Source: Armatimonadota bacterium
GTDB lineage: Bacteria > Armatimonadota > Fimbriimonadia > Fimbriimonadales > Fimbriimonadaceae
Direction: 5' to 3'
Length of the DNA stretch: 64,000 nucleotides
Assembly: GCA_020161505.1 (NCBI GenBank)
Contig: JAIUNY010000001.1
Span: 186,001 to 250,000, forward strand
Positions 35,344 to 45,201 of this stretch are shown here, one piece after another. The notes under the pieces are model-generated. The model made no database searches, had not been told where the DNA came from, and saw only the letters and a list, made by a program, of their open reading frames with translations. How positions within the stretch are numbered: position 1 is the stretch's first letter; every line of letters begins with the position of its first letter. A program made the translations under genes and the position numbers.

Positions 35344-37167
35344 ATGTCTCTCCCTATCCGAAACCTTGGCATCATTGCCCACGTTGACCACGGCAAAACC
35401 ACCCTGGTTGACGCAATCTTCCGCCAAGCCGGACTCTTCCGATCCAACGAGCACGTGCAGGATCGGGTGATGGACAGCAACGACATCGAGCGAGAGCGCG
35501 GAATCACGATTCTCTCCAAGGTCGCCAGCTGCACCTATCAGGGCACTAAGATCAATATCGTCGACACCCCAGGCCACGCGGACTTCGGCGGCGAAGTCGA
35601 GCGCGTACTCAGCATGGTGGATGGCGTCCTGCTCATCGTCGATGCCTGCGAAGGCCCGATGCCCCAAACCCGCTTTGTGCTCAAAAAGGCTTTCGACAAC
35701 AATCTCAAGGTTGTCTGCTGCGTCAACAAAATCGACCGCGAAGGGGCCAGACCGCTGGAGGCCTACGATAAAACGATCGACCTCTTCATCGACCTGGGTG
35801 CGGAAGAGGAGGACTTGTTCTTCCCCGTGCTCTACGTGAGCGGTGCCGGCGGATATGCCCGTCTGACGCCAGATGGCGAAGAGCAGGATATGCGACACCT
35901 GTTCGAGGCGATCATCAACGAGATTCCGGCTCCCAAAGCGATTCTCGATGGCCCAGCACGACTTCAGATCAACAATCTCGACTACAGCGACTACCTCGGC
36001 CGGATCTTCGGCGGGAAGCTCCTGCGGGGGCGAGTTCGAGTCGGCGACCGCATGACTCAAGTGAAGGAAGACGGTAAGCAAGTCGGATTCAACGTCACCA
36101 AAGTCTGGATTTACGAGGGCCTGAAGCTGAAAGAGGTGGAAGTCGGCGAGGCAGGCGAAATCGTCATGATGTCCGGCACCGACGACGTACTCATTGGCGA
36201 TTCGATCTGCGATGCCCAATTTGTGGAGCCCCTTCCGCGGATTGAAGTCGAGCCGAGCACCCTGACGATGAACTTCTTTGCCAACAGCTCTCCGCTTGCC
36301 GGAAAGGATGGCGGCAAGTTCCTGACGATCCACAAGATCCGAGAGCGCTTGGAGAAGGAAGAAAAGACCAGCGTCACCCTCAAGATCGACCGCACCGCCA
36401 GCGCGGAAACGGTCAAGGTTGCGGCGCGCGGCGAAATGCAGCTCAGCGTCCTCATCGAAACCATGCGCCGAGAAGGCTACGAAATGGCCATCGCTCGCCC
36501 AGAGGTCATCTTCAAGGAGAATGACATGGGCACCAAGCTCGAGCCGGTCGAGCAACTCACCTGTGAGTTCGAGGAAACCGGCATGGGCGAGGTCATGGAA
36601 GAGCTGAGCCGCCGGAAAGCGATGATCGAGGGCATGGAATCCCTCGGGAATGGTCGAACCAGAGTGGTCAGCAGCATCCCCACTCGGGGCCTGATTGGGT
36701 TCCGAAGCGCCTATCTCACGATGACGCGGGGGACGGGAATCCTGGCGAGTATTTTTGAAGGGTATCAGCAGTATCGAGGTGCCGTAGAAAACCGCACGAA
36801 CGGCTCGCTCATCTGCAAGGACCCGGGCAAGATCACGCGGTATGCCTACGAAGATGTCCAGGAGCGCGGCGTGCTCTTTCACGGCGTGGGCGTCGACACC
36901 TACGGCGGCATGATTGTCGGCCAGAATGCTCGCGACGAGGACATGGTGGTCAACATCACGAAGACAAAGGCCGCGAACAACATGCGCTCCGCAACTTCGG
37001 ACGATACGTCGGTGCTGAAGCCGGTCAAGGATTTCTCACTTGAGCAAGCACTGAGCTGGCTCCGGGACGACGAGTTGCTTGAGGTGACCCCGAAGATGCT
37101 CCGATTCCGCAAAAAGATCCTGGATCACAGCGAGCGACGCGTCGCCGAACGCCGTGCGGGTGTCTAG
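35344..37167 (+). CDS. typA: Ribosome-associated GTPase TypA/BipA
   Basis: 607 residues from ATG 35344, the standard length. GTPase involved in 50S assembly and stress/cold adaptation. Full G-domain: AHVDHGKTT (P-loop), [28 protein letters not shown]. The EF-G-like C-terminal half includes [19 protein letters not shown], a hallmark of BipA, and ends with the basic [17 protein letters not shown] at 35332 is possible but less likely. Confidence 0.97.
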
Positions 37168-37229
37168 TATTCTTGCGGAAGTCGCGGGAATTCGTGACTT
37201 GACCGCCAAGTAGGTGGGCCATAATACTT

Positions 37230-37831
37230 ATGGCTGTCATGGAACAATCAGGCAAACGCGCAGGGATCGCCGGTCTGGCACTTGGTGCCACTTTTGCGCT
37301 TGTTCACTTCCTGTCCACTCCGGTTCATGCTCAATCCGGTGGGGGGGGGGGGCGGTGCTTCTCTGGATCAACTACGGAGCAATTGAGGCTCCTGGCCTGG
37401 ACACCGACGGGTTTTTGAAGACTTCGCAAAGAGTCTACTATCCAACGATCTGCAACTGCAGTGATGCCGAGGCTACTTTCAATATTGCAGTGCCGCTGTT
37501 AGAGATAGTAACCGTCGATTCCTGCCGGGTTCCTCCGGGCTCAAGCCCGCCGGGCTATTGCACGGCCCGGTCACCAAGGGTTAACCCCGAAAGGCAGGGC
37601 CGAGTAACAACAGTAATAATACCAGCCAGGCAGTGCCTTAACTTTCTTGAGGTGTATTGGAAGTGGGAATTCGGCGTAGTGCATCCACTTTGCTACAATG
37701 ATGATCAATGCCCAAAAGTAGTCTTGCCTGGGACCTTAAATGGTGAGACTGTTCCAACAGGGGCAAGAAGTCCGGTACCGCCCGAGTGTCAGCCGACTGG
37801 CCCGGGCGGTGGCGGCGGAGGTGGGGAATGA
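37230..37831 (+). CDS. Secreted Cys/Gly-rich protein interrupted by a poly-G12 frameshift tract
   Basis: The start ATG 37230 opens a clear signal peptide (about 1-35, core LALGATFALVHFLSTPVHA). Then comes a run of 12 G (37341-37352), after which this frame stops at 37418. The remaining protein is in the frame that ends at 37831 (LLWINYGAIEAPGLDTDGFL ... DSCRV, GYCTARS, RQCLNF, PLCYND, DQCPKV, ending GPGGGGGGGE). A tract of 10 or 13 G would join signal peptide and mature part. With 12 G the gene reads as off, which is the pattern of a phase-variable gene or of a homopolymer base-call error. Family unknown. Confidence 0.65.
37341..37352 (+). repeat. Homopolymer G12 tract
   Basis: Twelve consecutive G inside the coding region, right after the signal peptide. 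Its length sets whether the downstream frame is read. Confidence 0.85.
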
Positions 37832-38961
37832 ACCGATTAGCTTCAACTCGCAGACTATCCTTAATTGGGATTGTTGCACTGTTTACAACTTCTGCATTTG
37901 CCAGCGAGAAGTCGCTTCAGTCGATTGCGAAAAATGAGCAGGTGGGATTGGTGATCCCCTACAACTTACTCAAGGATCGCGAGCTTGACGTGCCGAACTA
38001 TCCTGTCGGCGAACTCGCCCTCACTTACCTCGCTGGGGCTTCGCTGACGCGCCAGACCGAACTCAACGGCGTGCGTGTCTTCTATTACGATGCACGCTAC
38101 GTAGTGGCATCGCAAGATCGTCTTCGTAGCGCCTTTGAATCGTGGGTAAACACGTTGGCACCGCAGCAACACGAGGTTGGGCGACGCCGCTCTTGGCGGT
38201 TGAAAGACTTCCCGGACTCCATGACACATGAAATAGTGTATGAAGCTGCCGATGGTGCCACGCTTAGAGAGGCAATATCGGGGCAATATGGCTCAGTGCT
38301 GATGCTTGGATACGAAGTTCAGGACGGAGCGGGCAAGCTACTCTACAGTTGGTTCGGGCCAACCCGTACAAGAGAGCCGAATCGCGAGCCTGTGCCGCAG
38401 GTGTACCCCGATGTTCCAAGCGGGCCACCAGCGGGAAAAGGGATCCCGAAGGGCGAGCTGAACTTTGGGAAAGGTGAAGTTAGAACGCTACGGGATTTCT
38501 GTCTGCTCGCATGGGCGAAGTTTGGGCGCACTCTCTCGATAGACCGGCGGTTGCAAGACGAGGAGTACTTTATCTCCGGCGGTTTTGACTTTGAGACATT
38601 TAGGCAGGTGATTGAGCGCATTAACAAGACTGAGCCAGTCTTCTGGTATGACCCGGCAGATCGCACCCCCGTAATGCTTGGGCAAGCCACGGTACTAGCT
38701 CACGCAGAGCGACTTGAGAAGGAACTCGGATCAGATTGGCAGTCCCTCATAAAGGGCGAGTTTGTGTCGGCACCACTGGTTTTGCCCCCTGACTCGCGTG
38801 ATCGAGAGATGAAGCTCTTGAATCTGCCCGAGTATCGCGCCCGCGTCCGAGTCGGCATTGGGCTTATGCACTATGTGATGCGGCCTGTCTCGCGACTCAA
38901 CGATCCTACTAAGCCGCTTCCCCCGAACGAAGTTTCATCCTTCATCGTAGGGTGGAATTGA
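37828..38961 (+). CDS. Secreted protein with two STN (secretin/TonB N-terminal)-like modules
   Basis: 377 residues. ATG 37828 overlaps the preceding stop by four bases (ATGA), with GGAGGTGGGGA upstream, so it is translationally coupled to the poly-G gene. Signal peptide about 1-26. Residues about 28-90 (SLQSIAKNEQVGLVIPYNLL) and about 215-280 (TLRDFCLLAWAKFGRTLSID, then FETFRQVIERI) resemble STN domains, but no secretin barrel follows. Base composition is AT-richer than neighbours. Function unknown. Confidence 0.6.
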   Translation: MNRLASTRRLSLIGIVALFTTSAFASEKSLQSIAKNEQVGLVIPYNLLKDRELDVPNYPVGELALTYLAGASLTRQTELNGVRVFYYDARYVVASQDRLRSAFESWVNTLAPQQHEVGRRRSWRLKDFPDSMTHEIVYEAADGATLREAISGQYGSVLMLGYEVQDGAGKLLYSWFGPTRTREPNREPVPQVYPDVPSGPPAGKGIPKGELNFGKGEVRTLRDFCLLAWAKFGRTLSIDRRLQDEEYFISGGFDFETFRQVIERINKTEPVFWYDPADRTPVMLGQATVLAHAERLEKELGSDWQSLIKGEFVSAPLVLPPDSRDREMKLLNLPEYRARVRVGIGLMHYVMRPVSRLNDPTKPLPPNEVSSFIVGWN

Positions 38962-44444: not shown

Positions 44445-45201
44445 GTTTTGGGTCGCAGGATTGGTGCTCTTGAGCGCTCTCGGAGGGTGTTATTTCGACA
44501 CCCTGCCGGATCCCAATGCGATCACTTCTCAGCGGATGCCCGAAGCCGAGGTGATGCAGCGCAACATCTCTTCCGCCTATGCCTCGCTCGATCGTCGGCT
44601 CAAGAAGGGCGAGATCACGGAGGCGCAAAAGAAGGATTCGATTGATCAGCTCGTGCAGGTTTATGCAGAGAAGATCATCCTGGAGGAGGTGCCAGATCGA
44701 ACCGCCTTCCGGTACGCGGATATTCTGCGACAAGCTGGTCGCCTAAAAGAAGCCGAAGGGCTCTATCGGAAAGCCGTCGAGGTGGCCCCGAACGAAGATC
44801 GTCGGGTCAACGATTCGCTCCAGCTCGCCCGCGTCCTGATGATGCAGGGCAAAGGGAAGGAGGCCATGACTCTGGCTCGATCCACATTTGATGTGGAGCC
44901 CAAGGAGAAGGCGCCGATCATGATGGCGGTTCTCTACGAGATCGTCCCTGAGGGACGAAAAAAAAAGCAGAGCCTCACCGAACTCGCGAAGCTCCTGGAA
45001 GAATCGATTAACCAGCACATGCTCGTTTACGTGGATCCCACGACGGATGGAGGGCAAGCGTTTCTTTCGGCGATGCCAAGGCACCTGGACAATGCCTGGG
45101 ATGAAGTGATGAAGCTCTACCGAGACGCAGATCGCGATGACCTGATGCAAGCTGCTTTCAACCGTCGTCGCGAGCAAGATCGGAAGACTCGATCCCTGTA
45201 G
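44434..45201 (+). CDS. TPR-type lipoprotein
   Basis: 255 residues from ATG 44434 (ATG 44425 adds three residues). Lipoprotein signal MKPKFWVAGLVLLSALGGC, then helical TPR-like pairs (YADILRQAGRLKEAEGLYRK; LARVLMMQGKGKEAMTLARS). Probably an outer-membrane or periplasmic scaffold. It overlaps the pyrC end by about 11 nt and so is co-transcribed with pyrimidine genes, without obvious functional link. Confidence 0.75.
   Translation: MKPKFWVAGLVLLSALGGCYFDTLPDPNAITSQRMPEAEVMQRNISSAYASLDRRLKKGEITEAQKKDSIDQLVQVYAEKIILEEVPDRTAFRYADILRQAGRLKEAEGLYRKAVEVAPNEDRRVNDSLQLARVLMMQGKGKEAMTLARSTFDVEPKEKAPIMMAVLYEIVPEGRKKKQSLTELAKLLEESINQHMLVYVDPTTDGGQAFLSAMPRHLDNAWDEVMKLYRDADRDDLMQAAFNRRREQDRKTRSL

Follow-up and report, generated by a model that had tools for sequence, protein, structure and literature searches.

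Most of what is known about homopolymer phase variation comes from host-adapted pathogens and commensals. Long G/C tracts are reported to slip in replication and thereby act as switches of reading frame or of promoter spacing (PMC5320596; PMC3786947), and the switching mechanism itself is already known. The meningococcal receptors HmbR and HpuAB undergo translational phase variation by intragenic G/C tracts, as described in PMC3786947, and Neisseria fetA and porA undergo transcriptional phase variation, whereby the tracts are located between the -35 and the -10 region (described in PMC5320596). For Helicobacter canadensis, homopolymer contingency sets are described in PMC2823697.

Here we analyzed a G12 tract within a 64-kb stretch of DNA, referred to as the window, which is located on contig C6 of a 3.14-Mb genome (38 contigs) from the Fimbriimonadaceae, a poorly studied family of environmental bacteria. 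The locus is similar to HmbR and HpuAB as described in that a coding G/C tract is present in the gene of an exported protein and its length sets the frame, but it comes from another phylum, concerns unrelated proteins, has its tract exactly at the junction of signal peptide and mature domain and is here read from sequence alone. Most of the tracts that occur throughout the family rather correspond to the fetA/porA type, as they occupy the space from a TTGACA-like to a TAnnnT hexamer, the spacing being ~17–19; they differ from it in that the -10 is usually followed by an ATG after 6–7 nt (near-leaderless) and that the genes encode small secreted proteins. This promoter-spacer design is not used at the window locus. 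Like H. canadensis, as portrayed in PMC2823697, the genome under study has many tract-associated genes, some transcriptional and some translational in type, but fewer tracts per genome (six internal ones of at least 10). A literature search, with subscription papers outside its coverage, yielded no paper in which phase variation is linked to Fimbriimonadaceae, Armatimonadetes or Armatimonadota.

The G12 Tract Lies Between a Signal Peptide and a Cys-Rich Frame

The G12 homopolymer is located at 37341–37352 (this and the other parts of the unit are on the plus strand) and is the sole G/C run of at least 9 within the window. It is preceded by the signal-peptide segment of a small gene (37230–37340), which starts with the ATG at 37230, possibly alternatively with the ATG at 37239, and translates to MAVMEQSGKRAGIAGLALGATFALVHFLSTPVHA and then QSGGGGG where the frame enters the tract. 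The N-terminus was called signal-peptide-like by eye and by hydrophobicity; it consists of an n-region with K/R, the hydrophobic core AGLALGATFALVHFL and a cleavage-like VHA. With 12 G, translation continues into an out-of-frame tail (37353–37418) and ends at the TGA at 37416–37418, resulting in a product of 62 aa. The open frame behind the tract (37353–37831) comprises 158 codons plus stop and encodes a Cys-rich, Gly-ended mature domain, whereby its codon-usage and GC3 signals are weak. Translation at different tract lengths joined the signal peptide to the 158-codon frame at n = 10 or 13 and gave an early stop at n = 11, 12, or 14, such that in the proposed length switch n = 12 would stand for OFF and n = 10 or 13 for ON. 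An earlier note on this DNA had claimed 12 G behind a signal peptide, a stop of the tract frame at 37418, a Cys-rich, Gly-ended frame up to 37831, and a fusion of the two parts by 10 or 13 G. Direct reading and translation reproduced all of this, and the frame arithmetic holds, with n = 12 not joining the parts. The long frame exists as it was described there, but it is not merely a lone frame, since it overlaps a second gene.

This second gene, in the following the partner gene (37828–38961), encodes a protein of 377 aa with a signal peptide. The unit thus consists of two genes, in which the stop of the small gene and the ATG of the partner gene overlap as ATGA at 37828; furthermore, an SD-like GGAGGTG is present ~6 nt upstream of the partner ATG. 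A putative promoter of the two-gene unit was read directly at 37199–37227 (TTGACC, 17 nt, TAATAC, or 15 nt and CATAAT). Its -10 is 2–4 nt upstream of the ATG at 37230 and 11–13 nt upstream of the ATG at 37239, and the promoter resembles the near-leaderless spacing of other family promoters; there is no long tract in its -35/-10 spacer GCCAAGTAGGTGGGCCA.

Just upstream of the unit lies the gene for BipA (35347–37164), which shows 83% identity to BipA from Fimbriimonadaceae bacterium ACE_ARM8, with the next best match at ~50%; this places the organism in the Fimbriimonadaceae (Armatimonadota). The DNA 3' of bipA in ACE_ARM8 does not contain the gene pair, nor does any other genome of the same genus that was examined, and therefore the pair constitutes an accessory unit. 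The small protein gave no Pfam or NCBIfam match, and close homologues of its gene were not found, the genus included. A phmmer search with the mature domain against the collected ORFs led to marginal matches only (best E ~6e-5, compared to 0.01 as the best value in the reversed database). These matches showed no consistent genomic context, and the alignment to the locus L209 was preferred to them.

A Likely Homologue Carries a Tract in Its Promoter

L209 originates from another genus (genome G021) and encodes a secreted protein of 144 aa. Its mature part aligns in full length with the mature domain from the window (local score 53, z 4.2, 0 of 300 shuffles), whereby a CxC and further Cys positions are shared. 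The next gene downstream belongs to the partner family (E 2.5e-39). L209 is likely a homologue of the small gene from the window. Its body follows the signal peptide in the same frame, and an internal tract is absent; this reading through supports the view that the fused frame is what functions in the window. The L209 promoter reads TTGACATGCGCC-G9-TAAGGT, and thus the same gene type appears to have its tract at two different sites, namely the promoter in L209 and the coding region in the window. According to the earlier note, homologues without any G-tract at the position in question would refute a switch. Such homologues were indeed found (L209, L048, and L045). Switching nevertheless stands as a reading, because in L209 a gene of the same type has its tract in the promoter, to which it seems to have moved, and the note's proposal of a length switch for a secreted product gains support from the comparison across relatives. 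The order of tract promoter, small secreted gene, and partner-family gene also occurs at L198, L197, and L208, and in a weaker form at L194. Counting against a switch are the weak codon-usage and GC3 signals of the mature frame, the lack of close homologues, and the relatives of the partner family from G013 and G034, which are preceded by a small gene but not by a tract.

G/C Tracts at the Starts of Secreted-Protein Genes

The G/C runs in the window include 353 of length 4, 78 of 5, and 13 of 6, none of 7–11, and then the one of 12. Their frequency drops ~4- to 6-fold with each added base and therefore G12 is outside the ordinary tail; extrapolation predicts <0.001 runs of 12 for the window and ~1 run of at least 10 for the whole genome. 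A dinucleotide-shuffle control was milder, with at least 4 9-mer matches in 11 of 100 shuffles. The only other homopolymer of at least 9 in the window is an A9 run (44958–44966), which is within chance.

Genome-wide, eight G/C runs of at least 10 were observed against the ~1 expected, and six of them are internal to contigs; the tracts at contig ends (C19:1, C24:8) were left out as possible artefacts. Five of the six internal tracts are found at starts of genes for secreted or membrane proteins. Two of these precede signal-peptide genes and are flanked by TTGACT on one side and TAGCGT/TAGCTT on the other, two are poly-C that separate the ATG from the segment for a signal or an anchor, and one is the G12 of the window. 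The sixth lies upstream of another signal-peptide gene without a clear design. The promoter-spacer tracts G11 (L023, G000:C37:17427) and G10 (L027, G000:C19:233005) both have a 19-nt spacing and precede small secreted proteins of 157 and 164 aa, respectively. In L022 (G000:C29:52153) and L028 (G000:C22:6781), poly-C follows directly after the ATG, whereby both are out of frame as sequenced; the products are a 315-aa anchored and a ~590-aa secreted protein, respectively. Loss of mismatch repair is not an obvious driver, since mutL is present in the genome and mismatch repair is thus at least partly present.

In 73 genomes of the family, the pattern TTGACN{2,14}G8N{0,12}TANNNT yielded 30 distinct matches compared to 2 in the reversed control, and in 27 genomes from other families of the order it yielded 4 compared to 2. 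The tract touches the -10 in 21 of the 30 promoter sites, and an ATG is present 6–7 nt past the -10 in 17 of them. The -35/-10 spacers centre on 17–19 (range 15–26). The ORFs behind these tracts have a hydrophobic N-terminus in 23 of 27 cases and most encode 90–180 aa. When tracts were picked without the promoter pattern, 25 of 53 were at starts of secreted genes compared to 54 of 452 control runs of 4–6 (Fisher p = 6e-9). Tracts at signal-peptide junctions alone (6/53 versus 27/452) are not significant (p = 0.14), so that the support for the design seen in the window consists of examples. Together, the similar G-runs at secreted-gene starts across Fimbriimonadaceae suggest family-wide random on/off switches. 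Two paralogous promoters from G003 have near-identical flanks but tracts of G9 and G17, which in this analysis come nearest to direct evidence of a length change. In G046, three paralogous secreted proteins of 373–375 aa (L201, L210, L217), two of them adjacent, each have their own G8–G9 promoter tract. G003 additionally contains G67–G71 where contigs end, as well as a run of 44 G within a G-rich patch (L179, L182, L188; contig ends, C8:567403); these probably stem from sequencing or assembly errors or from repeats that were collapsed.

For coding tracts, the phase was worked out from frame tables by asking whether the start ahead of the tract and the open frame behind it agree, with one genome per species. 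Two of 11 are in frame (L232, L133) and nine are out of frame, namely the window together with L022, L028, L163, L185, L223, L237, L255, and L166. Such mixed phases would match random lengths, for which about a third should be in frame, but not fixed coding repeats, which should all be in frame. Besides the window, tracts at the signal-peptide/mature junction occur in L163, L185, L223, L232, L237, L133, and L255; poly-C on the coding strand is present in L022, L028, L185, L223, L232, L255, and L166. L133 (G078, G10, in frame) and L255 (G030, C11, out of frame) are from different families, encode homologous lipoprotein-like thiol-motif proteins (FF.CGC.PC), and both have the tract just after the signal peptide. 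L237 and L238 (G032:C15) share the same leader and G12, but their bodies have diverged to 35% identity, which looks like the duplication of a switchable leader. Gene callers are liable to miss or split tract-bearing genes of this kind.

Proposed Switching and Rival Explanations

The tract, its frames, the recurring design, the mixed phases, and the paralogous promoters of differing tract length were seen directly; slippage in living cells and the expression states we infer from them. G12 probably represents a slipped-strand contingency (phase-variation) locus, which was captured in the OFF state and belongs to a family-wide set, with the partner gene probably coupled to it. Slipped-strand mispairing in replication would alter the number of G. 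With 10 or 13 G, signal peptide and Cys-rich mature domain would form one protein that is exported, and with 11, 12, or 14 G translation would terminate early, which would leave the sequenced copy OFF. In the OFF state, the partner would probably lose translational coupling, because its gene overlaps the small-gene stop (ATGA), despite its own SD-like sequence. Throughout the Fimbriimonadaceae, G/C tracts at gene starts would switch diverse secreted proteins, most commonly through an altered -35/-10 distance in near-leaderless promoters and more rarely through a frameshift near the signal peptide.

It might also be that the count of 12 is a base-call or assembly error and that every cell in truth has 10 or 13 G and an intact gene. 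Homopolymers are error-prone, and at any one locus a miscount can look like an OFF state. Moreover, two tracts of the same genome are at contig ends, and suspect tracts occur in relatives (G67–G71 at G003 contig ends, G007 tracts beside N). We nevertheless consider an error unlikely: even if off by one, G12 is far outside the run-length distribution, its placement fits the family-wide pattern, and 9 of 11 coding tracts are out of frame in different assemblies, whereby the recurrence of the placement is independent of exact tract counts. Alternatively, slippage could have left a fixed frameshift and made the small gene a pseudogene without selected switching, for which the out-of-frame n = 12 and the patchy occurrence of the gene, which is not found in the genus, would speak. 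Such a decayed gene is decidedly unlikely given that the mature frame is open over 158 codons, the ATGA overlap with an intact partner is kept, the Cys positions common to L209 are retained, and this likely homologue has a tract as well.

Long homopolymers generally permit slippage of RNA polymerase as well, and on G12 this would generate mixed mRNA and always some protein while the DNA remains unchanged. Transcriptional slippage is a highly improbable explanation, however, as it accounts neither for the promoter-spacer tracts, which are not transcribed, nor for the differing tract lengths in the paralogous promoters from G003. We give next to no weight to the idea that the tract is a structural DNA or RNA element, whose length would be irrelevant. 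Poly-G can form G-quadruplex-like structures, but in several of the coding tracts the coding strand reads poly-C, and the -35/-10 spacers centre near the sigma-70 optimum, which points to spacing.

Beyond slipped-strand switching at the window locus, we are inclined to think of a Fimbriimonadaceae-wide contingency system, in which poly-G within near-leaderless promoter spacers or at signal-peptide junctions would randomly switch a large, fast-diverging pool of small secreted proteins, partly together with an STN-like partner family, and in which the switch could shift out of the promoter into the coding region without leaving the gene type. As to the benefit, our guess is that exposed or secreted antigens are varied against phages, predators, or competitors. 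If true, homopolymer phase variation would extend to environmental, little-cultured Armatimonadota, where its targets would be small secreted proteins. The switchable genes would already be listed, and the pressure (phage, predator, or competitor) that upholds switching outside animal hosts would become testable.

The Partner Gene Belongs to a Previously Undescribed Family

The partner protein showed no Pfam or NCBIfam match and no sequence match to STN/N0, and a search against the genome contigs gave no relative. With a partner-family profile, relatives were identified in 14 of the 73 family genomes; the family is previously undescribed. A first AlphaFold model from 8 sequences was poor (pLDDT 44), whereas the model from 25 sequences (pLDDT 65.5) shows two alpha/beta modules. 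Foldseek with the latter model yielded nothing below E = 1. VIA-align yielded five weak structural matches (Z 2.4–4.2), all of them to STN or secretin-N0 domains, among them FpvA with a Z of 4.2 and the N0 of MxiD/InvG with 3.1 or less. The model thus gives a weak hint of a secretin-N0/STN-like fold, as known from secretin N0 and TonB-receptor signalling (STN) proteins, although the Z values are too low for a membership claim and a Pfam or sequence match is missing. The members of the partner family (37828–38961 and L262–L291) are secreted proteins of ~390 aa with invariant D239, R241, and G251, and up to seven copies are present per genome, as in G039.
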